Shown: positions 238 to 42,385 of the stretch, one piece after another
How the letters are laid out: each line of letters begins with the position of its first letter
Numbering within the stretch: position 1 is the first letter of the stretch
IMG/VR virus record: IMGVR_UViG_3300010375_000026
Location: 1 to 45,412 of that record
Direction: 5' to 3' (one strand)
DNA: 45,412 nt
From: a virus
The notes under the pieces: generated by a model
Databases searched by the model: none
Told to the model about the DNA's origin: nothing
The model's input: only the letters and a program-made list of their open reading frames with translations
Translations under genes and position numbers: made by a program

Positions 238-313
238 GCGCCCGTAGCTCAATGGATAGAGTACTGCCCTCCGAAGGCAGGGGTTGCTGGTTCGATCCCA
301 GCCGGGCGCGCCA
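238..313 (+). tRNA. tRNA-Arg (anticodon CCG)
   Basis: This is a complete 76-nt tRNA with encoded CCA. The acceptor strands GCGCCCG (238-244) and CGGGCGC (303-309) pair exactly, with discriminator G at 310 and CCA at 311-313. The anticodon stem CTGCC/GGCAG encloses a loop with CCG, which reads the Arg codon CGG. The T-arm GCTGG/CCAGC carries TTCGATC. The prophage is integrated at the 3' half of this gene, so everything from 262 on is supplied by the phage att core and the tRNA stays functional. Confidence 0.97.
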
Positions 314-315
314 AG
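262..315 (+). repeat. attL: left att site core (54-bp direct repeat)
   Basis: The 54 bases from the anticodon arm to two bases past the CCA end are identical to 42332-42385. The base before (G261 versus T42331) and the base after (T316 versus C42386) differ, which sets the limits. The core covers the anticodon arm, variable loop, T-arm and 3' acceptor strand, a usual target segment for tyrosine integrases. Confidence 0.95.
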
Positions 316-355
316 TCTTCTTGTAAAATCAAGCACTTACCGACGAAGTAGCCGA

Positions 356-464
356 TGCGCTACACTGCCGTCACGCCCATTTTCGGCCCGTTTCGCTGCC
401 TCAGTGTAGCCAGAATGTAGCCGTTGTAGCGGCGCGACAGGCTCAGCTACAGCACCGTTGTAGC
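356..464. repeat. integrase arm-type site cluster, left side
   Basis: The motif TGTAGCC recurs at 405-411, 416-422 and 458-464, with the near-copy TGTAGCG at 425-431 and inverted copies GCTACAC (about 358-364) and AGCTACA (about 445-451). The segment 405-424 closely matches the sequence beside the other att core (42257-42276). Repeats at both phage ends around the att core are what tyrosine integrases bind with their N-terminal domain. Binding itself is inferred. Confidence 0.6.
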
Positions 465-640
465 CGGACCCGGACCCAAATTTGATGCGCTTATCTGCGG
501 GCAGTTACGCCGCTCGCTCGCGCCCACGCTCCCCCGTGCGCCCACCTGCGCGCGTCTTTCCAGCAGCGGTGGATGGTACGCGTGCCTGTACGCGCGCGAA
601 TGCTCCTCTGCGTCGCCGATTGCCTGCCTTTCGAGGGCAG

Positions 641-646
641 TTGACA
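641..646 (+). promoter_or_regulatory. GGCAGTTGACA box, decayed early promoter
   Basis: A perfect TTGACA sits in the same GGCAGTTGACA context as the three early promoters further right, but no good -10 box lies 16-18 bases downstream. It is either a decayed copy or a binding site of another kind. Confidence 0.3.
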
Positions 647-872
647 GAACGCCTGTATGCCATGCCCGGCAAGGGTGACGAGAGGCGCTGTATGGCGCTG
701 GCCACACTCTGGCTACACTCGCCTATGCCCTGAGCCCACCAAGGGCGCTACGGGGCTCTATTCGTCTCTGCCTGCGATGTCTGCCTGTCCGGTGCGCCTG
801 ATGGTCGCAAAGCTGGTCGCTTGCTCGCAGGGCCGCATGCGTGTGCGTGTGGGCGGGCATCTGTCCTACTTT

Positions 873-898
873 GATTTCATGACCCTAAGCAGACACAA
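873..898 (+). promoter_or_regulatory. putative phage RNA polymerase promoter, left end
   Basis: The stretch contains TCATGACCCTAAGCAGAC preceded by GATT and followed by ACAA. It is identical over about 24 bases to the copies before the capsid and fibre genes. It would let the phage polymerase transcribe the early and replication genes from the left end. Confidence 0.75.
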
Positions 899-1100
899 GG
901 GCGTTGCATCTATTGCCAGCAGCCCAGCAGCAGCCCGCCCAGCGCGCAGCAGCCGGACTCCATCCAGCCCTGACGAGCAGCCCGGACAGATAGCTGTCTG
1001 CCCTGAGCCTAGGAATAGGCACGGGAAAGCCTAATGAAGCGCCGAGCGAGCAGCAGCCTGACAGACCTTACAGGCAGGCAACGGATACCCTGCGGAACAC

Positions 1101-1130: not shown

Positions 1131-1234
1131 AGACACCCAGCGCACGCTACAGGCTGAGACACTCAGGCAATGACCGAGAGAACCCGCCGAGCGCTGATGA
1201 GGAAGGCCGAACGAATGGCTACATTAAAAGGCAG

Positions 1235-1263
1235 TTGACACAAGGCCGAAGTGTAGGCATGAT
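1235..1263 (+). promoter_or_regulatory. early sigma-70 promoter 1
   Basis: TTGACA (1235-1240), a 17-base spacer, then CATGAT (1258-1263). It shares the upstream block GGCTACA-N-AAAAGGCAG with the next two promoters, so these are repeated promoter modules like the tandem host-polymerase promoters of T7. Confidence 0.6.
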
Positions 1264-1333
1264 GGGAACCCTAGCAGCACGCAGCAGTAAGCGTGAGGCA
1301 GCCGAGCAAGATAACGGCTACAGCGAAAGGCAG

Positions 1334-1361
1334 TTGACAGAATCGCTGGAACGTGTAGAAT
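1334..1361 (+). promoter_or_regulatory. early sigma-70 promoter 2
   Basis: TTGACA (1334-1339), a 16-base spacer and TAGAAT (1356-1361). This is the best sigma-70 match in the left leader and lies 99 bases after promoter 1, in the same GGCTACA...AAAGGCAG context. Confidence 0.75.
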
Positions 1362-1456
1362 GCGAAGCACGCTGTAACGCAGCGCTGAACAGACGAACGC
1401 CTAGGCGATGAGCCAGCAAGTAGACAATGAGGCGCAGCGGCTACAGTAAAAGGCAG

Positions 1457-1485
1457 TTGACAAACGGTGATGCAGTCGGTAAGAT
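1457..1485 (+). promoter_or_regulatory. early sigma-70 promoter 3
   Basis: TTGACA (1457-1462), a 17-base spacer and TAAGAT (1480-1485), again preceded by GGCTACA and AAAAGGCAG. It lies 123 bases after promoter 2. Confidence 0.7.
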
Positions 1486-2056: not shown

Positions 2057-2296
2057 ATGAAACTACGGAAGATCACCAACAACGCTCGCGAGCTGTCGCT
2101 TCCGGGTGGAGTTCGTGTCCTGTTCAGCTATGAAGATGCCGTCGCGGCTTACCATCCCGATATGGGCTGGATTAAGTCCTCGTCCGAAATGACGAAGGCG
2201 ACCGCGTTCGTCGTCAAGGAATGGCTGTACGAGCAAGATGCCGAGAACGTGCGCCCTGTCGATCAGGCCGTTCTCGATACCTTACTCGTGAAGTGA
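2057..2296 (+). CDS. early protein, DUF8033-like
   Basis: This 79-residue protein is the first confident gene of the early region. Its opening (KLRKITNNARELSLPGGVR, then VLFSYE and VAAY) matches a pattern I recall from many small phage proteins assigned to DUF8033; no function is known for that family. The start is ATG 2057 with GAGG five bases upstream, not the open frame further upstream. A terminator-like hairpin follows the stop, so it may be its own short transcript. It is soluble, without membrane segment or signal peptide. The family call is from memory of the motif and is moderately sure. Confidence 0.8.
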   Translation: MKLRKITNNARELSLPGGVRVLFSYEDAVAAYHPDMGWIKSSSEMTKATAFVVKEWLYEQDAENVRPVDQAVLDTLLVK

Positions 2297-6309: not shown

Positions 6310-6551
6310 CGACGAAGGTAACGGTCGAGTCGTACATGCGTGCTCACTTCCCGGCGTCGGCGATGAAGCTCACGGGCTTCGAGCTGGGACGGGCGGCAGC
6401 GGCGCGATGGCGCGAGCAGCATGACGGCGAGCAGCCCGAGCGTAAGCAGTCCGGCAAGAACTTCCGGGCGCAGTACGACGATACCTGGCTGAATCGCAAC
6501 GCCCAGCAGATCATCCAGCTCGCGAAGGAGCGGCGTAAGCCGAAGCACTGA
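6306..6551 (+). CDS. hypothetical protein upstream of primase
   Basis: An 81-residue helical, basic protein of unknown function. ATG 6306 overlaps the preceding stop (ATGA) and its stop overlaps the primase start (TGATG), so it is co-translated with the primase. That tie suggests a role in replication, but no domain supports it. Confidence 0.6.
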   Translation: MTTKVTVESYMRAHFPASAMKLTGFELGRAAAARWREQHDGEQPERKQSGKNFRAQYDDTWLNRNAQQIIQLAKERRKPKH

Positions 6552-7357
6552 TGGCGGAAGCGTGGCTACGTGCCGCGCAACGCCTCAAGCTCGGGCAGAA
6601 AGGCCGAGCATTCCACGGCTGTTCCGGGTCCAGCTCCGGACCCTCGCTGCTCATCAGTAACGACCGCGAGAAGTGGTCGGGCTGGTGCTTCCGCTGTCAC
6701 GAGACAGTGATCGAGTGGAAGCCGGTGGAGAGCTTCGCCGAGCGGGTCAAGCGTATGCGAGAGGAGCAGGCGGCTGATGAGGAAGCGGCAACGACCGCAT
6801 CCCCGCCTCAGCCTGCGAACTTCGACATCGAGACTTGGCCCATCGAGGCTCGCCTCTGGCTCCTCAAAGCGTCCGTGGGGCGCTCGGAAGTCGGCAGGCT
6901 AGGCGCGTACCACCATGCTCGTACGAACCGCGTGGTGCTCCCCGTTGTGGACGACGGACGCATCGTGTACTGGCAGGCTCGCTCAGTGGATGGGCGTGAG
7001 CCGAAGTACATCGGTGCGGCTATCGACAAACGGCACATCGTTGCGGCGTACGGGCATGGCGATCCAGTGCTCGTCGAGGACATCCTCTCTGCGTTTCGTG
7101 TCGGCGAATCCGGCGAAGCGCAGGGTATGGCGATCCTCGGCACGGCGCTGAACGATCGGGTACTCGCCCGGCTCATCCATCAGCAGCGTCCGGTCACGGT
7201 ATGGCTGGACCCGGATAGCGCGGGCCGCGAGGCGGCGCGCGGCATCGTCAAGAGACTGTCCCTCGTCGGACTGAATCATCGTCAGATCGTAACCCGCCGT
7301 GATCCAAAGCTACTAAGCAAAGGAGAGATCAAATCGCTATTGACTCCTCGCTCCTGA
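6551..7357 (+). CDS. DNA primase
   Basis: This 268-residue protein makes RNA primers for phage replication. The N-terminus has a reduced zinc-binding module (H22, C24, then C46 and C49 in CFRC). A TOPRIM catalytic domain follows, with E176 in VLVEDILSA and D220/D222 in WLDPDSAG. It lacks a helicase domain; that is the next gene, whereas T7 gp4 joins both. A separate primase and helicase is a trait of phiKMV-like phages. ATG 6551 overlaps the previous stop. Confidence 0.9.
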   Translation: MAEAWLRAAQRLKLGQKGRAFHGCSGSSSGPSLLISNDREKWSGWCFRCHETVIEWKPVESFAERVKRMREEQAADEEAATTASPPQPANFDIETWPIEARLWLLKASVGRSEVGRLGAYHHARTNRVVLPVVDDGRIVYWQARSVDGREPKYIGAAIDKRHIVAAYGHGDPVLVEDILSAFRVGESGEAQGMAILGTALNDRVLARLIHQQRPVTVWLDPDSAGREAARGIVKRLSLVGLNHRQIVTRRDPKLLSKGEIKSLLTPRS

Positions 7358-8598
7358 GACTTCTCAGGACGAGGGAGAACTACGAACGCCTCATCAACTT
7401 CGTGCCGCTGGACTCCTTGGAGGTGGCGACACGGACGCTGTTGAAGGACTACGGTAAGTTTCTCAAGGCCAACCCTGAGACGCAGGCCATCGAGCCCTCC
7501 GCGTTCCTGTCATTCTTCCTCGTATCCCATCCATCCCTCAAGCCCGAGGCTCAGGCGGTCTTCGCAGCCGCTATCAAGGACTCGGCCAATCCACCACCAC
7601 CCGGCACCGAAGACGGCATTCGTGATCGGCTCGTATCGCTGGCGACAGCGAGCAAGCTGCAAGCGCTGCTCGAAGGGTACAACGACGGCGAGGCAGACCT
7701 CACGATGGGCCTGCGTCAGCTCGCCGAGCAGCACGAGAACTGGACGCACCGACAGCGAAAGCACCCGAAGGTCAAGGACCGGATCGAGGACATGCTCGCG
7801 CTGGAGGAGAACGACACCGGCTTCCATTTCCGGCTGAACGTTCTGAACGAAGTGCTCAAGCCTCTGTGGGAAGGCGACTTCATCATCGTCGCCGCCCGCG
7901 TTGACAGCGGCAAGTCGACGTTCTTCGCGAGCGAGCTGACGTACATGGCCGAGCAGATACCGAAGCTGTACGGCGAGCGCGAGCGGCCGATCATCGTGTT
8001 CAACAACGAGGGTCCGGGCCGCAAGCTTCGGCACCGCATGTTCAACGCCGCGCTGGGCGTGGACAACGGCGGCCTCGTTGCCAAGTCGAAGGCGGGGACG
8101 GTCTACGAGGAGTATGTCTCGGCGACCGGCGACCGCATCATGATCTTCGATGTGCATGACTACACGATGGGGCAGCTCGAAGACATCGTGAAGGAGCTGG
8201 ACCCGTGCATCGTCGTCATCGACATGCTCGACAACGTGCAGGCTGACGTGAGCGTAGCAGCGAACGGCGGCACCCGCACCGACCAGCTTCTCGAATGGCT
8301 GTACCAGCGCGCCCGGATTTGGGCCGTGAAGTACCAGTGCGCAGTTATCGCTACGTCGCAGCTCAGCGGGGATGCGGACGGTGAGCTGTTCCCGAAGCTC
8401 TCCATGCTGGCGAACAGCAAGACAGGTAAGGCGGGTGCGGCGGATGCCGTCATCATGCTCGGCCGCAGCAACAACGTGGACTTGCAGAACACCCGGTTCA
8501 TAAGCACACCGAAGAACAAGAAGCGCCGTGACGGGGCACCTCAAGACCCGCGCCGCGAAGTCTCGTTCAAGGGATCGATAGCGAGGTTCGAGGATTGA
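7333..8598 (+). CDS. replicative DNA helicase (DnaB/T7 gp4-like)
   Basis: The protein is a hexameric RecA-fold helicase that unwinds the fork for the phage polymerase. Walker A is ARVDSGKST (coding about 7894-7920) and Walker B is IVVIDMLDN. The start is unclear. The first standard codon, GTG 7402, has no ribosome binding site, yet protein-like sequence (SLLRLLRTRENYERLINFVP) runs upstream in frame to about 7345. AGGAG (7321-7325) lies seven bases before ATC 7333 and thirteen before ATT 7339. I place the start at 7333 on the strength of that site; the stop overlaps the polymerase start. Confidence 0.85.
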   Translation: MAIDSSLLRLLRTRENYERLINFVPLDSLEVATRTLLKDYGKFLKANPETQAIEPSAFLSFFLVSHPSLKPEAQAVFAAAIKDSANPPPPGTEDGIRDRLVSLATASKLQALLEGYNDGEADLTMGLRQLAEQHENWTHRQRKHPKVKDRIEDMLALEENDTGFHFRLNVLNEVLKPLWEGDFIIVAARVDSGKSTFFASELTYMAEQIPKLYGERERPIIVFNNEGPGRKLRHRMFNAALGVDNGGLVAKSKAGTVYEEYVSATGDRIMIFDVHDYTMGQLEDIVKELDPCIVVIDMLDNVQADVSVAANGGTRTDQLLEWLYQRARIWAVKYQCAVIATSQLSGDADGELFPKLSMLANSKTGKAGAADAVIMLGRSNNVDLQNTRFISTPKNKKRRDGAPQDPRREVSFKGSIARFED

Positions 8599-11065: not shown

Positions 11066-12055
11066 ATGACTTTCGATTTCGCAGCAGCTATCGCAGCAGC
11101 AGCCGAGACTTCCACCGACATGAACGTTGCCTCGGCGGGCGGCGGCGACTACGCCCCACCGGCTGAAGGTAAGGCTGGCCTGCGCTTCGTGGCCTACATC
11201 GAGATCGGTAAGCAGGAAGGCACGTATCAGGGCAAGCCGAAGGTGAGCGACAAGGTATTCCTCGTGTTCGAGCTGCACGGCCCGAAGTGGCCGCTGAACG
11301 ATAACGGCGAGCCGCAGCGCATCACGGTCGAAGTGAACAAGTCGCAGAACGAGAAGGCCGGGTTCTACAAGATGTTCAAGACCATGAACTACGAGGGCAA
11401 GGCGCGCATCTTCGCGCAGCTCCTCGGCGGCGACTTCTAAGGCAAGATCATCCACCGCAAGTACAAGAACAAGCGAGGCAAGGAGGTGACGGTTGCCGAG
11501 CTGTACGACAAGGTGAATCAGGTCTACACGATTGAAGCGCCGTTCATCGAGGACGAGGAGGGCAACACGAAGCGCCGCAACGTGCCGCCCGCTATCACGC
11601 CGATCAAGGTGTTCCTGTGGGACAACCCGAGCAAGGGCATGTGGGACTCGATCTACATCGATGGTGAATACCCGGAGCGCAAGGACGAGAAGACCGGCGA
11701 GGTGATTGCACCGGCCCGCTCGAAGAACAAGTTCCAGCTTGCCATCAAGGCCGCGAAGAACTTCAAGGGTTCGGCTATCGAGGCGTTGCTCGACGGCGTG
11801 GACGACGAGGCGCTGAACAGCGTGGGAAAAACGCCGGAGCAGGCCGTTGCCGAAAAGAAGGCCAAGAGCGCAGCAGCGAAGGCAAGCTCGTCTGCCGATG
11901 CCGTCGAGGCGCAGCAAGCGAGTTCGACGGCAAGTGCTCCTCCTGCCGAACCGGCGACGAGTGGCGAATCTTCGAGCGCCGCTTCCAAACTGCCCGGCCA
12001 GAATTCGGACCCGGCAGATGAGGACGAACTCGCGGACGACGACCTGCCGTTCTGA
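11066..12055 (+). pseudogene. ssDNA-binding protein gene with in-frame TAA
   Basis: Reading straight through gives one 329-residue protein (counting the stop position) of the T7-like phage single-stranded-DNA-binding class. It has an N-terminal globular part, a long Ala/Ser-rich linker and an acidic tail ending DDDLPF, the kind of tail that contacts polymerase and helicase. A TAA at 11438-11440 (codon 125, after GGDF) splits it into 11066-11440 and an open part running to 12055. The frame is unbroken on both sides and the protein pattern continues (GKIIHRKYKNKRG). The only later start-like codon, GTG 11486, directly abuts a GGAGG and is badly spaced. The first start, ATG 11066, has AAGGAG about 13 bases upstream. 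Confidence 0.85.
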
Positions 12056-28385: not shown

Positions 28386-28394
28386 GGAGAGCAA

Positions 28395-30680: not shown

Positions 30681-30686
30681 GCGCGT

Positions 30687-30717: not shown

Positions 30718-30747
30718 TCATACGCGTTCAACCTTTTAGGAGAACAC

Positions 30748-33700: not shown

Positions 33701-35646
33701 TGGGGGCGAAGTACGGCGAGGCGAAGTCCACGGCTATCGGCAAGCGAGGCTGGCAGGGCTACTTGCCGTACGCGTGGGACTGGCGTGAGCTTCAATCGAT
33801 GTACAACGATCCGGCTCGCGCGAGCGAGTGGAATTCGTTCAAAGGCATGCTGCGCCAGCAGTACATGGCGAAGGTGATCGAGCCCGCGCTGGACAAGCTG
33901 AACAAGGTAGGCCCGGCCACGCAGGACGCAACGATGGAACTGCACCGGAAGGTCAGCGAGCAGGCTGCGAATCTCACGGATCGTTACCTGACGCAGATCA
34001 TCCGCGACCCGGACGCTCGCATTGCGGGCTCGGACGACCACTTCGGAGCGGTTGCAGCGGACATGCTCAAGGCGGACTACAAGGGCAAGAAGGTCACGGG
34101 TGTGATGGCGGACGACTTCAAGAAAGCACTCGTCGATGTCATCTCGGATCGTACCCGTACAGAGTTCGACCTGCTGGCCCGCCAGCCGGACGGCACGCGC
34201 CTGCTGGACTACATCGACACGGACATCGGCCGCATGGTGGAGGGGCAGTCCAGTGAGTTCGCTGGGCGCATCGCACTGGCTAAGCGTGGCCTGAAGGACG
34301 ACGCGCACTGGACCGCAATGAAGGACGCGCTCGTGTCCCGTGGTGCGAACCACGAGGAGATGAAGGCGCTGGACTTCCTGCACAAGAGTCTCACTGACCG
34401 CCTTGGCAACAAGGACAACGTGATTGCGCAGTTCCTCGCGCAGACGGCACACATGAGCATGATGGGGAAGCTGGGCTTCAACGCTCTGGCCGACTCCGCA
34501 TCGATCATCGCGTCGTCCGGTGTGAGCGGGATGTTCAAGGCCGTCTTCAACGGGATGGGGAAGGACACCGCGCTGATGAAGCAACTGAACCGCATGGCTT
34601 CATCGGCGATGGGGCTGGATCACCGTCTGCACTTCGGGGAGACGCGCGCGGGCGCTACGCTCAACCACACGGGCTCGGCACTTCAGGACTCGGCGATGTG
34701 GCGGCGGATTGGGTATCAGGGTATGGACATCGTAGGCAAGCTCTCGGGCGCGCACTACGTTGCCAAGGCTCTGCATCGCGGCTTCGTTCCGCTGCTGGCC
34801 GAAGACCTCGCGAAAGCGATCAGCGGCTCGACTATCGAGAACGGGGTCATCACGGGTACGGGGCATTCGCACCTGAACCCGGCTCGCCTCGTGGACTCGG
34901 GCCTGACGGCTGACCGTGTGGCCCGGATCAAGGAAGCCATCGCAACTCACGATGCCAACCGCAAGGATGGCGAGCTGTTCTCGTGGGACGCGTGGGACCG
35001 CACGCATCCGGGTGCAGCCGAGGACATGATCGGGGCTATCCACCGTGTTACCGGGCAGGCGCTTCAGCGTGCCTACATCGGCGAGACGCCGCGCTGGCTC
35101 AGCGAGGGCATCGTCGGGAAGTACGCGGGCCAGTTCAAGAAGTACGGCATCACGGCGCAGGAGAAGCAGCTCATGCGAAACGCGTTCATCGCAGACCGCA
35201 ACTCCGCGACGGGCTTCGTCATGGGTACGGCATGGGGTGCTGCCCTGTACTACACCAAGACGATGGCCTCGACGGCAGGCATGACGGACGCCCAGCGGGA
35301 GAAGTACGTCCGTGAGCACATGCACGGCATCCACCTCGCGAGCGGCATCGCAGTCATGACGAACGTTTCCGGGATGCTGGGCGACGGCCTCGACGCGGCG
35401 AATATCCTCATGGGCGGGCAGACGAACGCTGGCGGGTCGCCCATCGTAGCGCTCGGGCAGCTTCAGGCAATGTCCAAGGCGGCGGGCGCAGTCGGCGGCG
35501 CTGCCCTCGGCGTGCTGAACGGCGGCACGAACCCGCTGACGGACAAGCCGGTCAACTACGTCAAGAATGCTCGCACTGCAATGCGCGTCCTGCCGGGCGC
35601 GAACACCCTCATCGGCTCCGCACTCGCGAACGAGCTGAATCAGTAA
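30748..35646 (+). CDS. internal virion protein D with transglycosylase and zincin motifs (T7 gp16-like)
   Basis: At 1632 residues this is larger than T7 gp16 (1318). The N-terminus is a lytic transglycosylase domain (catalytic E32 in QESRNDP, then GARGYAQVMPQT and RAYNSG near residue 111) that opens peptidoglycan during ejection. A hydrophobic Ala-rich stretch is near 310-350, and a highly charged coiled segment spans about 480-530. In the middle HEIAH (657-661) followed by E713 in NVDEFVAGL is a zinc metallopeptidase signature, which T7 gp16 lacks. The rest is helical, as in ejection proteins. ATG 30748 has AGGAG upstream. Confidence 0.9.
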   Translation: MNFTQDQMTKLTENDRAIGAPQGASAAQIWQESRNDPNAVSPKGARGYAQVMPQTLTKVEEALGRRLDPSNFDDSLQIQRFVMTQNMQRIAVVAEALRAYNSGWNPEKWNNDETNAYVSAITGEDGVSTSGVPFVAPGMGKGHGIDPMQTPMMKALTMRQNAQLVADTLMDAAAFDSTPLRSSLDSMGLEDTAYAESAAGIRALSEKTDFAESFVRAAHWDTLAGRLQDAFQAGAPDPNWRMSDAQKHYVATEAPEIWADNHLRDYVGGAFSQADYERRLGMAQQQADFQRRAAQSGWTSPAGQLLAGAGDPVMLVATLGAGSIANAARAAFAVRAAEGVTGVVSSMAEGAAGNMLAAHAITRMDNGRDNWPELFRQGVLGAMLGGLGHAAGLMGEVRAKAEPEVGAKLDGHALDAHIAGQNERIDDIIGRAAGEVRSEDPNAGIHDSDPLADHKIVTESETRAGDHGAGDSKIADAVDEFKAEQAEKAEAEARAKEVEKLEPAERQAAEEGATDDATERDVAAGAEDRVNGEWADAEVARMGNVRDDMLSASERARGASTDSHTELMRLATDAKDPMIRALARRLMETQEGRSAAPIFEHPGSAQKGGNARSHYNPATHEIHTWAHDAIDHPTHAAKRAAGQMPRGGLNRDEMMLHEIAHSVTAQKIAYGKRMPQSAHGQLVGQLDKLRQRALREYKGTDHNTRYYLKNVDEFVAGLYSGQGEFINHLKSLKVKNGNILSKTVDAVRALLGLKPGDVNMLTKALGLSDHLVSKKLRADMPHARPSGHSVLTAPGVAREDVPLGALAQKMADQLQNWTEVLPKETEKLRRNAATWYDSIRGKKMGAVGKAVAVLDSVGMTLGRSANKDVRYIASMLAEDPTGVNRQHSSSAAIDKVILASNWRKPVAEVWHRILPELMTNEERVRWSQGIFAGDAEKRISRLVQEERLANRNARLSGEEYVSQAHPLVKQMAAVIDGMWKDMTEMGAKYGEAKSTAIGKRGWQGYLPYAWDWRELQSMYNDPARASEWNSFKGMLRQQYMAKVIEPALDKLNKVGPATQDATMELHRKVSEQAANLTDRYLTQIIRDPDARIAGSDDHFGAVAADMLKADYKGKKVTGVMADDFKKALVDVISDRTRTEFDLLARQPDGTRLLDYIDTDIGRMVEGQSSEFAGRIALAKRGLKDDAHWTAMKDALVSRGANHEEMKALDFLHKSLTDRLGNKDNVIAQFLAQTAHMSMMGKLGFNALADSASIIASSGVSGMFKAVFNGMGKDTALMKQLNRMASSAMGLDHRLHFGETRAGATLNHTGSALQDSAMWRRIGYQGMDIVGKLSGAHYVAKALHRGFVPLLAEDLAKAISGSTIENGVITGTGHSHLNPARLVDSGLTADRVARIKEAIATHDANRKDGELFSWDAWDRTHPGAAEDMIGAIHRVTGQALQRAYIGETPRWLSEGIVGKYAGQFKKYGITAQEKQLMRNAFIADRNSATGFVMGTAWGAALYYTKTMASTAGMTDAQREKYVREHMHGIHLASGIAVMTNVSGMLGDGLDAANILMGGQTNAGGSPIVALGQLQAMSKAAGAVGGAALGVLNGGTNPLTDKPVNYVKNARTAMRVLPGANTLIGSALANELNQ

Positions 35647-35653
35647 GCCGGAA

Positions 35654-35676
35654 CCCGCCCAGCCTAGCTGGGTGGG
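35654..35676 (+). terminator. hairpin before fibre promoter
   Basis: CCCGCCCAGC (35654-35663) pairs with GCTGGGTGGG (35667-35676) around a CTA loop, with one G-T pair. It lacks a T run but is very stable and sits directly before the phage promoter. Confidence 0.5.
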
Positions 35677-35682
35677 CCTCCG

Positions 35683-35708
35683 CAATTTCATGACCCTAAG
35701 CAGACACT
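35683..35708 (+). promoter_or_regulatory. putative phage RNA polymerase promoter before fibre
   Basis: A CAATT followed by TCATGACCCTAAGCAGACAC, identical in core to the left-end and capsid copies. It lies 17 bases before the fibre start and its GGAGG site. Confidence 0.8.
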
Positions 35709-35724
35709 AACAACAGGAGGTCAC

Positions 35725-37356
35725 ATGGCAGCGGACTACCTTGTCCCGTGGCTAAAAGCAGCGGGTCAGGATGGCCTGCGCAATTCGATGATGGTCGCCC
35801 AAGGCGATAACGTCACGAAGACATACACCTTCAACTTCGCTGGTGGGTACATCAGCAAGGATCACATCAAAGCGTACGTGTACGACGAGGTGGCGGGTAC
35901 GACAACGCCGCAGGTCATCACGCCCGCTATGTGGACTGGCCCGAGCCAGCTCACCTTCGGCACGGCATTCGCCGCCACACAGTTCCTCGTTATCTACCGG
36001 GACACGCCGAAAGACAAGCCGCTCTTGAGCTTTAAGAACGGCTCCATCATGAACGAGCCGAATCTCGACGAGATGGCCGAGCAGTCGGTCTTCTCGGCCG
36101 CTGAGACTCAGGACCGCTTCGACCTCGTGAACGACGGCTCCACGCTGGCGATCAACAACGCGGCTACGGCGCTGTCGCAGTCCAACAAAGCAGTCGCGGA
36201 TTCGGCGCAGGCGACACTCACGTCCGCCGCAGCCGAGTCTACGGCATCAGCGGCAAAATCGGTCGCGGACGCTGCAAGCGCCACCGCGAACGCTGCCAAC
36301 GATACGGCGAACGGCATCGATGCCAAAGCCACTACGGCGCTGAGCAATTCGAACAGCGCCGTCAGCACGGCGAATGCCGCCAGTGCGACGGCGAACGGCA
36401 TCGACGCGAAGGCGACCAAGGCGCAGTCCGATGCCGCCGCCGCCGTTGTGACGGCAAACGCGGCCAGCGCTACGGCGAGCGCTGCGAAGGCCACGGCTGA
36501 CGGGGTGGATGCCAAAGCTCAGAGCGCACTGGACACGGCGAACAACGCGGTTCAGAAGACTGGCGGTCGCGTGACCGGACCATTGACGCTAAGTTCGACT
36601 ACGAACTACAGCCGGACGGTATGGGACGCGAACGGCTACGCCCCGGCTGTGCAGGCCGATAAGGCGAGCAACCATATCGGCTTCGTGAATGCCGCCAACA
36701 CTGCCTACAACCTGTATGTGTTCGACGGTGGGCAAGTGGCAACGCGTGGGCCATTGACCGTAGGTGGCAACACGGTGGCAGGCGGGTCCAATGCGTCCCT
36801 TGTCAACAACGGTGACATTTGGGGCACCGCGTGGAACGGCGGTGGCTGGCTTAGTACCTACCTTGGCGGCAAGCTGAACGTTACAGGCGGCAACGTGAAC
36901 GGCCGCCTCAGCTGCACGTTGCAGGGCTGGCAGGCCGACTTGGCTCTGCATAACTGGCGGACTGGTCAAGACGCATGGGTGTACCTCCGGGCGCGAGACG
37001 GTGGTGGCCTCGACATCATCAACAGCGCCTACAACGCAGTGCCGTGGCAGGTGGATAACGGTGGGACTGTATGGCAGGCTGGCGCGTTGAATGTAGGTGC
37101 GGTGCGTTTCCAGACGGACGGGAACATCGTCGGCGGGAACATGCCGTGGGGCGACCTGTTTTCCGCGATCAACGTCAAGGTGAACAACGGGACACAAGCG
37201 ACACACCGCACGGGCGTCAACGAGTTCGCCTCGATCAACGTGGGCTATGCCGCCAACACTGCGGACGCAGGCTCGCCATGGGTTCTTATCGGAATGCGCT
37301 CACAAAATGGCTCTAACGTCACCTACCTGCGTGCTAACTGGCTCGCGGTAGGCTAA
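35725..37356 (+). CDS. tail fibre protein
   Basis: A 543-residue receptor-binding fibre. Residues 1-135 match the T7 gp17 N-terminal tail-attachment domain (YTFNFAGGYISKDHIKAYV, LVIYRDTP). Residues about 150-275 are Ala/Ser/Thr repeats with the unit TANGIDAKAT and SATA, probably a trimeric coiled shaft. The C-terminal half is Gly/Asn-rich beta sequence that would contact the host. It has its own phage promoter and a GGAGG site. The repeats could recombine and change shaft length. Confidence 0.9.
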   Translation: MAADYLVPWLKAAGQDGLRNSMMVAQGDNVTKTYTFNFAGGYISKDHIKAYVYDEVAGTTTPQVITPAMWTGPSQLTFGTAFAATQFLVIYRDTPKDKPLLSFKNGSIMNEPNLDEMAEQSVFSAAETQDRFDLVNDGSTLAINNAATALSQSNKAVADSAQATLTSAAAESTASAAKSVADAASATANAANDTANGIDAKATTALSNSNSAVSTANAASATANGIDAKATKAQSDAAAAVVTANAASATASAAKATADGVDAKAQSALDTANNAVQKTGGRVTGPLTLSSTTNYSRTVWDANGYAPAVQADKASNHIGFVNAANTAYNLYVFDGGQVATRGPLTVGGNTVAGGSNASLVNNGDIWGTAWNGGGWLSTYLGGKLNVTGGNVNGRLSCTLQGWQADLALHNWRTGQDAWVYLRARDGGGLDIINSAYNAVPWQVDNGGTVWQAGALNVGAVRFQTDGNIVGGNMPWGDLFSAINVKVNNGTQATHRTGVNEFASINVGYAANTADAGSPWVLIGMRSQNGSNVTYLRANWLAVG

Positions 37357-37364
37357 GGAGAAAT

Positions 37365-37769
37365 ATGGCATACACGCATGAGCACATGGTGTTCACGCTC
37401 ATGGAAATGTATCCGCACCTATCTCACTGGAAAGACTACAAGGTGGCACACCCGTGCTGCCCCGTGTCCGGTGAGCAGAACGCCGATCCTTGGATCGTTG
37501 AATGGACGGCCCCGGATGTCAAGCCGAAGGCCGAATGGGTGCTGGATTACTTCCAAGGGCATGAGGAAGAAATCTGCGCGAAGCTCGCTCGATACCATCG
37601 GGACGACAAGCTGCGGTTTAGCGACCAGTTCGCTTCACTACCGAGTGACGCTCCGCCGTATCTTGTGGATCGCCACGCGAAGATCGTGGAATATCGCGCG
37701 AAGCTGCGCAACATCGAAAACCTACCCGGCTGGCCTCTCGAAGTGGAGTGGCCGGAATTTCCAAAATAG
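37365..37769 (+). CDS. protein after fibre, possible fibre chaperone
   Basis: A 134-residue protein of unknown function directly after the fibre gene, a usual place for fibre-assembly chaperones. It is rich in Trp, Pro and aromatic residues (WIVEWTAPDVKPKAEWVLDYF), with no clear domain match. ATG 37365 has AGGAG upstream. It ends in TAG, so TAG is used as a real stop in this phage, which matters for the portal gene. Confidence 0.65.
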   Translation: MAYTHEHMVFTLMEMYPHLSHWKDYKVAHPCCPVSGEQNADPWIVEWTAPDVKPKAEWVLDYFQGHEEEICAKLARYHRDDKLRFSDQFASLPSDAPPYLVDRHAKIVEYRAKLRNIENLPGWPLEVEWPEFPK

Positions 37770-37777: not shown

Positions 37778-37966
37778 ATGAACGGCCGCGAAGTAGCATC
37801 GGCAGTAGTTCAAGCTGCACCTCCGGTCTACACAAGCGGCTCGCTCATTCTAGGGCATCCGCTCTCGGACTGGATCATGTATGGCACGGGCATCTACCTC
37901 GTGCTGCAATTCATTGTCATCGCACCGAAGGTGTACCGAACCCTAGCCGGGAAGGAGAAGAAGTGA
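37778..37966 (+). CDS. holin candidate, single-span membrane protein
   Basis: A 62-residue protein with a short polar N-terminus, a hydrophobic segment (about residues 22-50, with HPLSDWIMYGTGIYLVLQFIV) and a basic tail (RTLAGKEKK). The pattern ...SDWI-YGT-IY-VLQ- resembles small holins of T7-like phages. It would form lesions in the inner membrane, and it lies next to the terminase genes as the T7 holin does. ATG 37778 has AGGAG seven bases upstream; the stop overlaps the next start. Confidence 0.72.
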   Translation: MNGREVASAVVQAAPPVYTSGSLILGHPLSDWIMYGTGIYLVLQFIVIAPKVYRTLAGKEKK

Positions 37967-38277
37967 GCAAGACCGCCAGCACCGAATCGCTGGCGGAACT
38001 GCATGCGCTCGTGGCTGAGACGTTCAAGACGCTCGTTCAAGACGCCGACCTCTGCAACGCCGCCATCCTCGGCGCGGCAACTAAATTCCTGAAGGACAAC
38101 AATATCACGGCAGTCGTGGAAGACAACACGGCTCTGTCCGAGATGCAGAAGAAGATTCAGGAGATGCAGGCGCGGCGCAAGCAGCGCAATGTGGTTCCGC
38201 TGGTTCCGCAATCCACCGTATCTGACGACGAGGCGCAAGCCGCCGTCGAGCAAGCCATCGCAATGAATGGCTCGTGA
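37963..38277 (+). CDS. small terminase subunit (T7 gp18-like)
   Basis: A 104-residue helical protein directly before the large terminase, which is the place of the DNA-recognition subunit of the packaging motor. The pattern AAILGAATKFLKDNNI fits the gp18 family. It starts at GTG 37963, overlapping the holin stop, with GGAG nine bases before. The long frame starting at 37378 is a different frame running through upstream genes and is not the gene. Confidence 0.88.
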   Translation: MSKTASTESLAELHALVAETFKTLVQDADLCNAAILGAATKFLKDNNITAVVEDNTALSEMQKKIQEMQARRKQRNVVPLVPQSTVSDDEAQAAVEQAIAMNGS

Positions 38278-40063
38278 GTCCGTTGAACTAGCCGTACAGC
38301 GGATCGAGCAGCTCACCCTCCTACAAGAAGCCTACCCTCACTTTGTCCCGTTCTGCGAAGACGGGATGATCGAACTCGGCTTCTCGCTCTCGGAGGTGCA
38401 AGCTGACATCGCTGAGTTCCTTGAGTACGGTCCGCACTACCTGATGGTGCAGGCCCAACGGGGTCAGGCGAAGACCACCATCTGCGCTCTGTTCGCAGTC
38501 TGGTGTCTCATCCACGACCCGAAGTTCCGCGTGCTGATTATCTCGGCGGGCGGCACTCAGGCGAACGAAATCTCGACCCTCATCGTCCGCGTCATCATGA
38601 CGATGGACATCCTTGAATGCCTTCGCCCCGACCGCAACGCGGGCGACCGAACCTCGGTCGAGGCATTCGATGTGCATCACACCCTCAAGGGTCTGGACAA
38701 GTCGCCATCGGTGGCGTGCGTCGGCGTCACCGGCAACCTGCAGGGTAAGCGTGCCGACCTACTTATCGCGGACGACATTGAGAGTGCGAAGAACTCCCTG
38801 ACGGAGCACCAACGTCAGGCATTGCTTCAACTGACGCGGGACTTCCCGTCCATCTGCTCGACCGGGCGAATCGTGTACCTCGGCACGCCGCAGTCGATCA
38901 ACTCCATCTACAACACGCTGCCGGGACGTGGCTACACCGTCCGCATCTGGCCGGGACGCTACCCGACCGTGGCGCAGATGGAGAACTACGGCGACATGTT
39001 GGCCCCGCTCATCCTGCGGCGCATCGTTGCGAACCCGTCGCTCCAGACCGGAGGCGGGATGCTGGGCGACCAAGGCCAGCCCGTAGACCCGGAACTGCCC
39101 GCAGGCGTCGAGAGCTTCCTCGCGAAGAAGGAGCACGACCAAGGCCCGGCGTACTTCCAGCTCCAGCACATGCTGAACACGAAGCTGGCGGACTCGGAGC
39201 GCTTCCCGCTGCGCCTCGCCAAGATCATGACGATGCGCTTCGCGGAACTGTTTCCCCTCGGCATTACACCGGGGCTGCTCGCGCACGAGACGATCAAGTA
39301 CCAAGTCAACGGCACGACGTACACGATGGGTATCCCATCCAGCGTCGAGCGCGACCGCGCGCCACTGCAAGGCATCGTCATGTACGTGGACCCGGCAGGC
39401 GGCGGCAAGAATGGCGACGAGACGGGCTACGCCGTCGTCGGCTTCCTGAACGGCACGTTGTTCGTGGCGGAAGTCGGCGGCATCAAGGGCGGCTTCGACC
39501 CGGAGGGCTTCAAGTTCCTCGCGGGCATCGCGCGTAAGTGGAGGGTGAACCGAATCCTTGTCGAGAAGAACTTCGGCAACGGTGCATACCTGCACTCGTG
39601 GCTACCGATCCTTCGCGCCGAATACCCGCAGACCGTAGGCGACGGCTGCGCCATCGAGGAGACGTGGGAATCCGGCCAGAAGGAGCTGCGGATCATCGAC
39701 GTGTTGGAGCCGATCATCGCTCGCGGCTCGCTCGTGTTCAACGACGACATCCCGCGCGACGAGGAGAAGTCCCTCCAACGCTACCCGGTAGAGAAGCGCC
39801 CTAGCTACTCACTGCTCCACCAGATCGCGCACATCACGCGCGACAAGAACGCCCTTCAGCACGACGACCGACTGGACGCCCTCGCAGGCGCATGCCGGTA
39901 TTGGGTCGAGCAGATGGGCGTCAATCAGGAACGCGCAATCGAGCGCCTGCGCGAGCAGGAGTTCAACGACTGGATCAAGAACCCCCTGTCGCGCGTGGAC
40001 TACCGAACCAACCCAACTGGACGCCGAAGCGGCGGCTCAGCCTTCAACAAATACCGGAGGTAA
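38267..40063 (+). CDS. large terminase subunit (T7 gp19-like)
   Basis: A 598-residue ATPase-nuclease that packages DNA. Walker A-like AQRGQAKTT is at residues 63-71 and Walker B LLIADD at 165-170. The nuclease domain has MYVDPAGGGKNGDETGYAVVG (first Asp) and HDDRLDALAGA. The C-terminus is short and basic. ATG 38267 overlaps the small subunit by 11 bases. Its close likeness to T7 gp19 suggests packaging from concatemers with direct terminal repeats. Confidence 0.95.
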   Translation: MARESVELAVQRIEQLTLLQEAYPHFVPFCEDGMIELGFSLSEVQADIAEFLEYGPHYLMVQAQRGQAKTTICALFAVWCLIHDPKFRVLIISAGGTQANEISTLIVRVIMTMDILECLRPDRNAGDRTSVEAFDVHHTLKGLDKSPSVACVGVTGNLQGKRADLLIADDIESAKNSLTEHQRQALLQLTRDFPSICSTGRIVYLGTPQSINSIYNTLPGRGYTVRIWPGRYPTVAQMENYGDMLAPLILRRIVANPSLQTGGGMLGDQGQPVDPELPAGVESFLAKKEHDQGPAYFQLQHMLNTKLADSERFPLRLAKIMTMRFAELFPLGITPGLLAHETIKYQVNGTTYTMGIPSSVERDRAPLQGIVMYVDPAGGGKNGDETGYAVVGFLNGTLFVAEVGGIKGGFDPEGFKFLAGIARKWRVNRILVEKNFGNGAYLHSWLPILRAEYPQTVGDGCAIEETWESGQKELRIIDVLEPIIARGSLVFNDDIPRDEEKSLQRYPVEKRPSYSLLHQIAHITRDKNALQHDDRLDALAGACRYWVEQMGVNQERAIERLREQEFNDWIKNPLSRVDYRTNPTGRRSGGSAFNKYRR

Positions 40064-40066
40064 CTC

Positions 40067-40285
40067 ATGCTTGTAACCGATCTACCGAACATTCGCGAGG
40101 TGTACGGCCAAGGCGACGACCTGCGCTGGGACACATCGCAAGCCGTCACTCGCGTCGAAGAAGCAGCCGCGCGAGGTGCGGGTGGCGTCACATCCGCAGC
40201 GACCTTGCGGGACTTCTTCATTGCTGCTGCGAACGCCGCACACGCGGCGACGGGCGATATGCTCAAGACGGTGAAGCTCGCCTGA
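40067..40285 (+). CDS. hypothetical protein in lysis region
   Basis: A 72-residue protein of unknown function, soluble and Ala-rich in its second half. ATG 40067 has GGAGG eight bases upstream and the stop overlaps the lysozyme start (TGATG), so it belongs to the packaging/lysis transcript. It lacks a membrane span and so is not a holin by sequence. Confidence 0.65.
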   Translation: MLVTDLPNIREVYGQGDDLRWDTSQAVTRVEEAAARGAGGVTSAATLRDFFIAAANAAHAATGDMLKTVKLA

Positions 40286-40740
40286 TGGCACGCGTTAGCG
40301 CTGCCGTGATTGCGGCGGCGCTGGCGATCAGCGTCCCGCTCACGCTCACCTACGAGGGCACCCGTACCACGGCTTACCTTGACCCGGTAGGCATCCCCAC
40401 GGCCTGCACCGGACATACCGGAGCCGATGTGCGGGTAGGGCGAGTGTACTCGCCGGCCCAATGCACGACCCTGCTGAACGCGGACTCCGCCGAGGCGATG
40501 GGTGCGGTGCTCGACCTGACTACCGGCCCGATTAACGCGAACGAGCTGGCCGCATACACCGACTTCGTGTTCAACGTCGGGCGGGGCAACTTCGCCAAAT
40601 CGACGCTTCGCAAGAAGTTCAACGCGGGCGATCACCGAGGTGCCTGCGAGGAGCTGAAGAAGTGGGTCTACGCTAAGGGCGCGAAGCTGCGCGGGCTGGT
40701 GCTGCGCCGTCAGGCCGAATACGAGGTATGCACTCAATGA
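40285..40740 (+). CDS. SAR endolysin (GH24 lysozyme)
   Basis: A 151-residue muramidase that cleaves peptidoglycan at lysis. The catalytic triad is E24, D33 and T39, with the same spacing as T4 lysozyme. Residues 4-22 ([19 protein letters not shown]) are a weakly hydrophobic, Ala-rich signal-arrest-release segment, so it is likely exported by Sec and held in the membrane until holin or depolarisation frees it. C41 next to the active site could take part in disulfide control, as in some SAR lysozymes. ATG 40285 overlaps the upstream stop. Confidence 0.93.
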
Positions 40741-41072
40741 CCGACCGGATTATCGCCGTACTGCTGGGCCTGCTCCTCGTGGGCGGACTCAGCTTCACTG
40801 CCTACACCGAACACAGCCGTGCTCAGGCAGCCGAGGCGAAGGTGGAGGGACTGACGACCGCATTGGCGGCTTCTCAGGCTGCTCTGGATGCCTACGCCAC
40901 TTCCGCTCGCGCTGCTGCTACCCGAGCCAGCACCAACCAAACGAGAGTCACCAATGCCCTACAAACGCATCCTGACTGGACTCGCACTTCTGTCCCTGAC
41001 GATGTTTGGGACAGCCTGTACGGCAACCGCCCCGGTGCGGCCAGCGGCAGCGCTGCTCCAGCCGTGCGCTGA
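40737..41072 (+). CDS. inner-membrane spanin (Rz-like)
   Basis: A 111-residue protein with an N-terminal membrane helix (residues 5-24) and a periplasmic Ala-rich coiled coil, the i-spanin architecture that fuses inner and outer membranes at lysis. ATG 40737 overlaps the lysozyme stop by four bases. The o-spanin gene starts inside it in another frame. Confidence 0.88.
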
Positions 41073-41190
41073 GCCTGCACCTCCGACCGACCGTACCCTC
41101 GGCGGGCTCGTCCAGTCCGTCCACGATTACCAGACAGCGCTGGATTTCTGTAACGCGCAGCTCGATGCGCTGCGCGCCTTCTTCAAGTAA
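40954..41190 (+). CDS. outer-membrane lipoprotein spanin (Rz1-like)
   Basis: A 78-residue lipoprotein partly nested in the Rz-like gene in a different frame. The signal peptide ([19 protein letters not shown]) ends in a lipobox with Cys 22 (FGTAC), and Pro-rich segments follow, as is usual for Rz1. ATG 40954 is chosen because it gives a proper signal peptide; the frame is open further upstream. Its stop directly abuts the integrase stop on the other strand. Confidence 0.88.
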
Positions 41191-42228
41191 TCAGCCCAGC
41201 TTCTTCGCCAAGTCCTTCGCCTTGAGGTGCGTGTACCGGCGCATCATGGCGTTGGTCTTGTGCCCCGTGACGGACATCACCTCCGTCTCGATCAGCCCCT
41301 TCTCGAACAGCCGACTCGTGGCCTCATGCCGCGTGTCATGGAACCGTACACCTTCGATCCCGGCCCGCTTACGCAGTCGGGCGAATGCCTGCTTCACTGC
41401 CGACGCCGTGAGATCAGGGAACACGCGGCCCTTACGCTTCGCCGGGGCCGGCTCGATGCCGGTCAGCACCTCGTATGCTCGGGTGGACAGAGGTACGCCG
41501 CGCATCTCGTCCGTCTTCGTCGAGCCCCACCGCAGGATCACGACCCGATCCTCCAGGTCGACATTCTCCCATTCCAGCTCACGGGCTTCGCCTTGGCGCA
41601 TGCCTGTCTCGATGCACAGCTCGATCAGCGGGGCCATCCACGTCACGCGGCCCTTGGTGGCAGCAGCGAGTAGCTTCTGCTCCTCGTCGCCATCCACCCG
41701 TCGGTCACGCGGCGCGGCGTTCTTCGGCCGGCGCACGTCGGACACCGGGTTCGTAGGCGTCCCCATGCCCCATTCTGTCCGGGCAATCTCAAGGACGTGG
41801 TGCAGCAAGTTCAGCTCTCGGTTGACGGTATCGCCGGACACCGGGCGAGCTTCCTTGCCCCGCTTCCCGTTCGTGCCTTCGACGCCCTCCAGCCGCCTGT
41901 CGCGCCAGTTCGCGATGATGGCGGGTGTGAGCTTCCCGACCGCATACTCAGCCATGCTGTCCCGCTGGATGGCCTTGAGCCGCCACTCCTCAGAATCGCT
42001 ACCCTTCTTCTCAGGCGTGACCTTTTCCAGATACGTGCCAATTACGTCCTTCAGCAGCACGCCGCCTTCCAGATGGGAGAACCGATCGCTGTTCATCCGG
42101 GCTTCCACGTCGGTCGCCCATGTCTCGGCTTCCTTGTAGGTGTCGAAGGTCTGAATCTGCTGAGGGAAGCCCTTCTTGCGGACCATCGCCGTCCACTTGC
42201 CGCTCTTGCGCTGCTGGATTGTAGCCAT
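41191..42228 (-). CDS. tyrosine site-specific integrase
   Basis: A 345-residue recombinase that inserts and, with a helper, excises the prophage. Catalytic residues are R211 (GMRQGE), K238, H297-x-x-R300 (HDTRHE), H323 (TGHKT) and Y332 (RRYTH). Residues 1-45 form an AP2-like arm-binding domain, with FDTYKEAET at 28-36. It is the only minus-strand gene of the prophage and lies beside the right att core. A good sigma-70 promoter reads into it, and GGAG lies five bases before ATG. Confidence 0.97.
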   Translation of the reverse strand: MATIQQRKSGKWTAMVRKKGFPQQIQTFDTYKEAETWATDVEARMNSDRFSHLEGGVLLKDVIGTYLEKVTPEKKGSDSEEWRLKAIQRDSMAEYAVGKLTPAIIANWRDRRLEGVEGTNGKRGKEARPVSGDTVNRELNLLHHVLEIARTEWGMGTPTNPVSDVRRPKNAAPRDRRVDGDEEQKLLAAATKGRVTWMAPLIELCIETGMRQGEARELEWENVDLEDRVVILRWGSTKTDEMRGVPLSTRAYEVLTGIEPAPAKRKGRVFPDLTASAVKQAFARLRKRAGIEGVRFHDTRHEATSRLFEKGLIETEVMSVTGHKTNAMMRRYTHLKAKDLAKKLG

Positions 42229-42254
42229 GCTGACTCCGGGATAAGATGCAACTC

Positions 42255-42282
42255 ATTGTAGCCAGAGTGCAGCCGGTGTCAA
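42255..42282 (-). promoter_or_regulatory. integrase promoter (sigma-70)
   Basis: On the minus strand TTGACA (42282-42277), a 16-base spacer and TACAAT (42260-42255) lead into the integrase start at 42228. The -10 box overlaps an arm-type TTGTAGCC site and the -35 box overlaps the tRNA D-arm remnant, so bound integrase would block its own promoter. Confidence 0.8.
42256..42274. repeat. integrase arm-type sites, right side
   Basis: TTGTAGCC (42256-42263) and GTGCAGCC (42267-42274) repeat the spacing and sequence of the left cluster at 405-422 (TGTAGCCAGA, then TGTAGCCG). They lie inside the integrase promoter. Confidence 0.6.
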
Positions 42283-42331
42283 TGGATAGAGTTCGAGGCG
42301 CCCGCGTAGCAAGGCGAAGCGGGCGGCGATT
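42279..42331. repeat. tRNA D-arm remnant plus 39-base hairpin insert
   Basis: TCAATGGATAGAGT (42279-42292) is identical to bases 249-262 of the tRNA gene. In the tRNA the att core follows directly; here a 39-base insert (42293-42331) comes between. The insert holds a perfect CGCCCGC/GCGGGCG hairpin, and GCGCCCG within it equals the tRNA 5' acceptor strand. Confidence 0.7.
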
Positions 42332-42385
42332 TACTGCCCTCCGAAGGCAGGGGTTGCTGGTTCGATCCCAGCCGGGCGCGCCAAG
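42332..42385 (+). repeat. attR: right att site core (54-bp direct repeat)
   Basis: An exact copy of 262-315: the anticodon arm, T-arm and 3' acceptor strand of tRNA-Arg plus CCA and two further bases. This is the displaced 3' end of the original host gene and does not by itself form a tRNA. Confidence 0.95.

Follow-up and report, generated by a model that had tools for sequence, protein, structure and literature searches.

According to the accessible part of its description (PMC8917201), Burkholderia phage AMP1 is distantly related to T7 and carries an integrase that adjoins an incomplete tRNA gene. Ten AMP1-related putative prophages are flanked by tRNA repeats, integration of AMP1 itself was not detected, and its authors regard the compatibility of a T7-like genome with prophage maintenance as not understood. 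For the free Burkholderia phage Paku (MZ326863), lysogeny was merely suggested from the integrase (PMC9022590). The DNA analysed here is the whole 45,412-base virus record IMGVR_UViG_3300010375_000026, which we call the window, and our subject is the phiKMV/T7-like prophage of 42,070 bp that it holds at 262-42331. This prophage is a member of a known group, whose integrated state and empty site are now shown. What is new is a regulatory arrangement: a heptamer of the attachment (att) site also stands at the early host promoters and over the predicted promoter of the integrase gene (int), and it co-varies between these places across lineages. A literature search, whose coverage left most subscription journals outside, found no report of an integrase acting on early lytic promoters.

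Paku is collinear with the prophage in the window (RNA polymerase 98.0%, integrase 96.8%, and large terminase 98.8% identical) and has the same core in its phage attachment site (attP); it differs in being a free phage and in its tail-fibre end and fibre chaperone. The accessible part of PMC10134795 and the genome records of Pasto and HTVC019P show a T7-like RNA polymerase together with a tyrosine integrase in phages LUZ100, Pasto, and HTVC019P, with int beside a regulator gene and before the RNA polymerase (the regulator is MarR-like in LUZ100 and of the helix-turn-helix type in Pasto). Unlike in LUZ100 and Pasto, int of the window lies at the far right end on the opposite strand, and no such regulator was found among the early open reading frames (ORFs) tested. 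Phage JG068, in the available portion of its paper (PMC3765740), shares the gene plan and has phage promoters at matching places; unlike the window it is virulent and has neither an integrase nor an operator heptamer. The claim in the original prediction, which was made from the letters of this DNA, that temperate members of this group are rarely described is dated in view of Paku (PMC9022590), the AMP1-related prophages (accessible part of PMC8917201), and the T7-like temperate features in the available text of PMC10134795, and the question it raises, how a self-transcribing phage is controlled in the lysogen, is the one on which the new evidence bears.

Two recombinase systems outside the T7-like phages bear on this question. 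In KplE1, IntS acts as a repressor of the gene that encodes it (PMC2951348, accessible part); in the window the att heptamer, a candidate integrase site, lies over the probable -10 box of int, which would be a similar layout. In the available text IntS is reported as acting on its own gene, and early lytic promoters are not mentioned. MrpR of SPbeta is a lysogeny repressor with a tyrosine-recombinase fold and a repeated element, which according to the accessible part of PMC10516654 has lost its recombinase function. In a Foldseek search MrpR gave a weak match to the model of the window integrase; the latter, unlike MrpR, keeps the residues R, H-x-x-R, H, and Y and appears to integrate the phage.

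The heptamer in the window is GGCTACA. It begins 18 bp ahead of the -35 box at all three strong-looking early host promoters, a copy at 42257-42263 covers part of the -10 box in the promoter predicted for int, and in the joined attP it is found on both sides of the core. Six further copies are scattered over the remaining 40 kb. The sites called from the sequence are the following:

405-422, minus strand: two GGCTACA copies 11 bp apart (at 405 and 416), arm-type-like, on the attL side
459-465, minus strand: GGCTACA, arm-type-like, on the attL side
711-717, plus strand: GGCTACA between attL and the early promoters
1217-1262, plus strand: early host promoter 1, GGCTACA at 1217-1223 and -35 box TTGACA at 1235
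1316-1361, plus strand: early host promoter 2, GGCTACA at 1316-1322 and -35 box TTGACA at 1334
1439-1484, plus strand: early host promoter 3, GGCTACA at 1439-1445 and -35 box TTGACA at 1457
42220-42226, minus strand: GGCTACA at the int start codon
42255-42282, minus strand: predicted int promoter, -35 box TTGACA at 42282-42277 and, in our own reading, -10 box TACAAT at 42260-42255, 16 bp apart

The arm-type sites named in the original prediction thus have counterparts in arm-type-like GGCTACA copies at 405, 416, 459, 711, 42220, and 42257. In the window and in Paku a GGCAG, readable as a core-type half-site, directly adjoins the -35 box; it was dropped as a candidate element, as GGCAG is present in just 16 of 39 promoters.

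Among relatives of the prophage (G and L labels denote their genomes or records) the heptamer changes in step at attP and at the promoters, in seven lineages. It reads CGAGACA in G011 and G012, GGGACAG in G022, CGGGACA in G020, GGGTACA in G024, GGAGACA in G014, G017, G078, and G063, and AGGGACA/GGGACAG in G021. The own att heptamer or a variant occupies the fixed place in 39 of 54 early TTGACA sites from 14 elements. In an offset scan of seven lineage representatives, 30, 60, 58, and 31 matches to the phage's own att side were found at -19, -18, -17, and -16 from the -35 box; the background (-60 to +40, outside -20 to -14) had a mean of 3.0 and a maximum of 15 matches. When the promoters of each representative were compared with the att side of every other in a 7 x 7 matrix, the diagonal total was 179, a value reached by one of the 5,040 permutations, namely the true pairing, with a mean permutation of 43. 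The result is unchanged when 6-mers or 8-mers are used and when the 120 bp nearest to int are removed from the att side.

The heptamer can also be picked from the att side alone: of the twelve elements that have TTGACA promoters, nine show at least one of their most-repeated att heptamers 16-20 bp ahead of a TTGACA, the exceptions being Paku, where a CG repeat ranks first, and G078 and G063, where no heptamer occurs three times. For comparison we used 37 of 80 unrelated integrase loci, after exclusion of T7-like loci (10) and of those with less than 600 bp upstream (33). A repeated att heptamer was at that place in one of 140 TTGACA sites, from one of the 37 loci (seven of which had no repeated heptamer to test), and heptamers repeated three times at att were at 29 of 84 TTGACA sites in eleven elements of the clade. 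Among integrase-less relatives, the five with TTGACA promoters, of seven examined, showed no consistent box, with the exception of G006, in which two promoters share two overlapping 7-mers; the controls Percy and KSC have no TTGACA in the stretch examined, and Scott was left out because its stretch lacks the early region. We take G006 to be Ralstonia phage RSB1. At the other end of the element, the likely -10 box of the int promoter is overlapped by the att heptamer in seven of 14 elements (window, Paku, G078, G063, G011, G012, and G021); a -35 box of the int promoter was not found in six others, and G431 has TTGACT only.

Several observations weigh against a uniform coupling. Paku has GGCTACA at attP (four copies) and at two of its three early promoters, but the third carries the variant GGATACA. 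The promoters of G021 match the att side of G022 better (22) than their own (14); because their heptamers are related as well, G022 and G021 are not independent. The test with heptamers repeated three times scores in 11 of 15 clade elements, and G078, G063, G194, and G431 give 0 of 35 sites. In G431, whose RNA polymerase is 54% identical, the att-side motif is missing from both TTGACA promoters (0/2). A TTGACA early promoter was looked for in G194 and none was found; none lies within the contigs of G015 and G018 either. Nevertheless, the coupling of att and promoter heptamers is evident in the sequences, and within the nearer clade the arrangement is well supported as a sequence pattern, for which the mechanism considered below is a proposal.

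Motifs at the arms of attP are by anatomy the sites of the integrase or of an excisionase. The window and G078 have different heptamers (GGCTACA vs. GGAGACA), yet their proteins P007, P012, P013, P014, and DNA polymerase are 95-99% identical (P007, P012-P014, P016, P017, P019, and P020 are predicted window proteins that we compared with relatives). P007 (2057-2296), tried as a binder of the heptamer, is excluded by its 99% identity between phages with different heptamers. The integrases of the window and G078 are 59% identical overall and 52% over the first 60 residues; those of the window and Paku, which share the heptamer, are 96.8% identical. Against an assignment to the integrase, P016 (71%) and P019 (78%) also differ between window and G078, P017 was not found in G078, and P020 (65% to G078) matches a DNA-binding family over a short stretch (E 0.0002). 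However, P020 is just 71% identical to its counterpart in Paku, and no match was detected for P016 in G022 and G024, for P017 in G011, G020, and G024, or for P019 in G024; the coupling is present in G022 and G024. The integrase is therefore the best candidate for a binder found in all coupled phages, with other early proteins in part still candidates.

These same proteins are the material for another explanation, in which a separate small directionality factor, Apl-like and thus both excisionase and transcription regulator, binds the heptamer while the integrase uses other arm sites. Apl of phage 186 acts in this way, on direct repeats one helical turn apart (accessible part of PMC7498355); the sites described here fit, and many of the heptamer copies are in tandem at about 11 bp. 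The divergence of P016, P019, and P020, the absence of P017 from G078, and the DNA-binding match of P020 speak for such a factor. This explanation is nonetheless somewhat unlikely, as phages with unlike heptamers share several early proteins at 96-99% identity, the proteins that do diverge are undetected in G024 or fail to follow the shared heptamer of window and Paku, no excisionase or helix-turn-helix family was matched by the early ORFs tested (ten on the plus strand and ten on the minus strand), and copies of the heptamer flank the core on either side and also lie over the int promoter.

In the integrase the catalytic residues R211, H297/R300, H323, and Y332 are present. Its predicted structure (mean predicted local distance difference test score, pLDDT, 78.8; predicted template-modelling score 0.48) has three strands and a helix ahead of the core-binding and catalytic parts, and residues 1-40 are modelled at pLDDT 86-92. 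The best structural matches are the lambda and Tn1549 integrases; most rows cover residues 52-345, and two lambda integrase rows begin at residue 2 of the window integrase. The N-terminus is thus arm-binding-like, a likeness resting on predicted secondary structure and on these two rows. From the anatomy of attP and the co-variation, the integrase probably recognises GGCTACA at attP through an N-terminal arm-binding domain.

Two elements serve as a natural comparison. G078 and G063 (L101-L106) have two tyrosine integrases in tandem. The second, which shares 39% identity with that of the window, adjoins the tRNA-Arg(UCU) core, and a separate tandem motif, GTGTGACT, goes with it. The first is 59% identical to that of the window and has no adjoining core, but its frame and catalytic residues are intact. 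GGAGACA lies over the -10 box of the first-integrase promoter, and the early promoters carry GGAGACA and not the motif of the second integrase. The first integrases of G078 and G010 differ with a nonsynonymous divergence (dN) of 0.13 and a synonymous divergence (dS) of 1.13. Two points count against reading much into this ratio: it may partly reflect time before the loss of the att core, and the comparison of G078 with G063 (dN 0.005, dS 0.008) has too few changes to tell. A regulatory role appears to explain best why the first integrase was kept beside the newcomer and why its sites were kept at the promoters.

The mechanism we propose is as follows. Integrase bound at the heptamers would keep the three early promoters off, and integrase bound over the int -10 box would limit its own synthesis. 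As long as these promoters were off, phage RNA polymerase would not be made and the four putative phage promoters would stay silent, so that the prophage would be stable without a repressor of the CI or MarR type. On infection no integrase would yet be present and the early promoters would fire; lysogeny would follow only if integrase accumulated first. Repression by the integrase of the early promoters and of int is, in our judgement, about as likely as not. The wider proposal is more tentative, and we lean slightly against it: that the catalytically complete integrase is the lysogenic repressor, without a dedicated one, and that in G078 and G063 the first integrase has been kept as a regulator alone, a step towards MrpR-like repressors.

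The position of the heptamer allows for the opposite sign. At the early promoters it lies upstream of the -35 box, beginning 16-19 bp from it, which is within reach of activators and a place they also use; this counts against repression, and the heptamer might instead aid transcription, as the site of an activator or as an upstream element, including a single binder with an activating role early in infection. Repression is preferred because full -35 boxes are present at these promoters, whose firing has to precede any phage protein, and because the site over the likely int -10 box in seven elements points to repression; an aid to transcription is improbable.

Slightly less probable still is that another early product, of the type of AMP1 ORF3 or ORF14 or an unrecognised repressor, restrains lytic growth, and that the heptamers serve recombination only. 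The accessible part of the AMP1 paper (PMC8917201) reports that mutations in ORF3 and ORF14 accompany relief of a growth block at 25 degrees, and that a mutant without most of the integrase and att is still cold-sensitive in growth; the integrase is dispensable for the block. At least one restraint on lytic growth in AMP1 is therefore independent of the integrase, a result that speaks against the integrase as sole regulator. However, the AMP1 authors found the block seemingly not linked to lysogeny under their conditions, and a heptamer used in recombination only leaves the fixed-place att motif at the early promoters of seven lineages unexplained. The same accessible text does not mention promoter operators. 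P007 was considered as a possible counterpart of AMP1 ORF3; in that comparison, the S-CAM1 gene numbered 70 proved much too long for the "ORF70" meant by the AMP1 authors. Two genes of the window prophage are broken (see below), and consequently the stability of this particular copy says little about repression by the integrase.

The sequence features on which the reading as an integrated prophage rests are:

238-313, plus strand: intact host tRNA-Arg(CCG), the integration target (ARAGORN; Rfam tRNA, 66.7 bits)
262-315, plus strand: attL core, 54 bp, the 3' part of tRNA-Arg(CCG) (exact repeat; attP in Paku)
42332-42385, plus strand: attR core, 54 bp (exact repeat; empty site in relatives)

The 54-bp tRNA duplication reported in the original prediction is exact; the left copy forms the 3' portion of a tRNA gene that is intact. 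Paku aligns to the window in eight blocks at 80-99% and has the core once, at 42482, with the two inner ends of the prophage joined around it: window 262-507 corresponds to Paku 42482-42727, window 508 onwards to Paku 1 onwards, and window 42388 to Paku 42538. Because the free phage has the same core once, flanked by both inner ends, the repeat is not due to chance. On the host side, the sequences left and right of the prophage, once joined, give a single alignment through the unoccupied site of B. metallica (L077; 72%, 3,436 columns) and through that of B. latens (L081; 92.7% over 354 columns). The tRNA is thus present once and without the phage in related genome stretches, a point on which the original prediction of a tRNA-targeted prophage could have failed and on which it held. 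The refined reading is that the element is almost certainly a temperate phiKMV/T7-type phage close to Paku, inserted by its own integrase at a tRNA-Arg(CCG) gene of a Burkholderia.

A 79-base pattern consisting of the tRNA and three further bases occurs in 25 stretches among the genome contigs searched, 19 of them titled Burkholderia. Among these 25 loci, 19 show a match to the left flank of the window, and 15 do so at 87-94% over nearly the whole flank length; the right flank had no match among plasmids. As the flanks match Burkholderia tRNA loci and empty sites, the host appears to be a Burkholderia, probably of the cepacia complex. The RNA polymerase was not found in the 25 genomes with the tRNA pattern, in a search that had no positive control in that set. 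ARAGORN calls a "tRNA-Asn" at 42298-42383, which we read as an attR hybrid, and an Rfam search for partial tRNAs returned only the intact tRNA and one weak chance match lying on it. The Paku record (L004) annotates a tRNA-Ser at 42469-42533, on the attP core that is the 3' part of tRNA-Arg(CCG). Beyond attR the host sequence has a glycosyltransferase-like gene (PF13524) at 44239-45345.

Integrase-bearing relatives were collected from several sources. Searches with the RNA polymerase and terminase led to 30 IMG/VR records, and 12 of the 24 searched for an integrase relative had one (L009, L010, L011, L012, L014, and L017 were left out of this search). A polymerase match was found in three of 65 Burkholderia genomes, two of them at 82-84%, and in nine of 398 family genomes drawn evenly, three of them at 60% or more. 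All three of these elements are bounded by tRNA repeats, of tRNA-Arg(UCU) in G078 (65 bp) and G063 (57 bp) and of tRNA-Val(CAC) in G194 (49 bp). A tRNA 3' part was found upstream of an integrase in all 17 integrase-bearing elements examined whose sequence continues past the gene. In the remainder of ten of these genomes, this pattern turns up three times in 833,504 strand-bases. The tRNA used is Arg(CCG) in the window, Paku, G011, G012, and G021, Arg(UCU)-like in G078, G063, and G431, and Val(CAC)-like in G194, G022, G020, G024, G014, G015, G017, G018, and G428. G008 and G010 end at the integrase and are outside this count, G430 has no att side, and G429 was left out as its polymerase score equals that of G194. 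Seven integrase-less control relatives, including JG068 and G006, gave no integrase in a search that detected Paku as positive control (0/7). The original prediction would have been undermined by an integrase belonging to an unrelated insert; the gene has the same place in Paku and in the clade of relatives.

The integrase alone found no match in viral contigs, and the RNA polymerase none in the genome contigs searched. Distant T7-type RNA polymerase loci (31-36% identity) are present in Burkholderiaceae (G078:C2:1665480-1667072, G086:C4:857949-859322, G218, G314, G300, G416, and G130); some are below full length, and they perhaps belong to another prophage group. In Rhizobium phage Pasto (L210) all genome copies of TGGCACA, five in number, lie at 8644-8914, between tRNA-Leu and the RNA polymerase operon. 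These copies fall within 271 bp and may all be arm sites, and the first 9.4 kb has one TTGACA; as a lead, Pasto suggests that the design with an att motif at lytic promoters may extend beyond the clade.

The rest of the prophage follows the T7-like plan: genes for DNA metabolism, a single-subunit RNA polymerase, T7-like head, tail, packaging, and lysis genes, all rightward, with the integrase leftward at the right end. In Paku, int is the sole annotated gene on the opposite strand. The RNA polymerase is placed after the DNA-metabolism genes, as in phiKMV-like Autographiviridae. The features, left to right, are:

873-898, plus strand: putative promoter of the phage RNA polymerase, a 26-bp repeat with further copies at 18971, 23173, and 35684
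2057-2296, plus strand: conserved early gene P007, 79 amino acids (aa), phrog_5643, function without assignment (comparison of relatives, profile match)
6551-11045, plus strand: primase, helicase, and DNA polymerase (profile matches; homology to annotated Paku genes)
11066-12055, plus strand: gene corresponding to Paku gene 26 (phrog_862), its frame interrupted by a stop codon at 11438 (comparison with Paku)
16472-18931, plus strand: single-subunit RNA polymerase, 819 aa (phrog_414, E 1.5e-298; 98.0% to Paku)
20685-22244, plus strand: portal/head-tail connector gene, its frame interrupted by a stop codon at 21003 (profile match; comparison with Paku)
22251-24232, plus strand: scaffold and major capsid (profile match; Paku comparison)
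24290-37356, plus strand: tail tubes, internal virion proteins, and tail fibre (profile matches; C-terminal part of the tail fibre differs from Paku)
37778-41190, plus strand: holin, small and large terminase, endolysin, and spanins (profile match; Paku comparison)
41191-42228, minus strand: tyrosine integrase, 345 aa (phrog_1, E 2e-56; PF00589, E 6.9e-28)

The places of the 26-bp repeat (left end, after the polymerase, before the capsid, and before the tail fibre) correspond to those of four phage promoters in JG068, for which six are annotated. The family of P007, phrog_5643, has relatives in cyanophages and in large phages of enterobacteria. At 35725-37769 the C-terminal part of the tail fibre and the adjoining fibre chaperone gene are unlike Paku, and the N-terminal part is 81% identical, a module swap. 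From its place and an acidic tail we read the product of the phrog_862 gene as a putative single-stranded-DNA-binding protein. The Paku record has no terminal repeat, and its authors could not determine the termini; such repeats are not visible in a prophage.

The plan in the original prediction, including the phage RNA polymerase and structural genes collinear with Paku, is thus borne out, as is the integrase, which lies on the minus strand. Its description as a full prophage is right for gene content but must be qualified, as two genes, the portal among them, carry in-frame stops. Both are intact in Paku, and no internal stop was seen in five other elements checked (G078, G063, G194, G010, and G008; the portal match of G010 includes a stop at its very end), so that intact copies of both genes exist elsewhere. 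The window copy may be defective, or the record may carry errors, sequencing error and real damage being not separable here. The two broken genes make it doubtful that this copy could be induced and infect. The stops would also fit the chance integration of a broken lytic-type phage that has no control of lysogeny; however, integrase, att sites, and operators are conserved and co-vary across the clade, including free Paku and the stop-free prophages, which makes this explanation very improbable.

If the proposed control by the integrase is true, it would explain the silence of a self-transcribing phage in the lysogen and would show a route from recombinase to repressor. The att heptamer before early -35 boxes would then be a sequence sign of temperate T7-like phages without a recognisable repressor, and such a sign matters for the choice of therapy phages. 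The operators offer a cheap and concrete test, requiring the integrase, the heptamer, and three promoters, of the maintenance puzzle stated by the AMP1 authors in the accessible part of their paper (PMC8917201).

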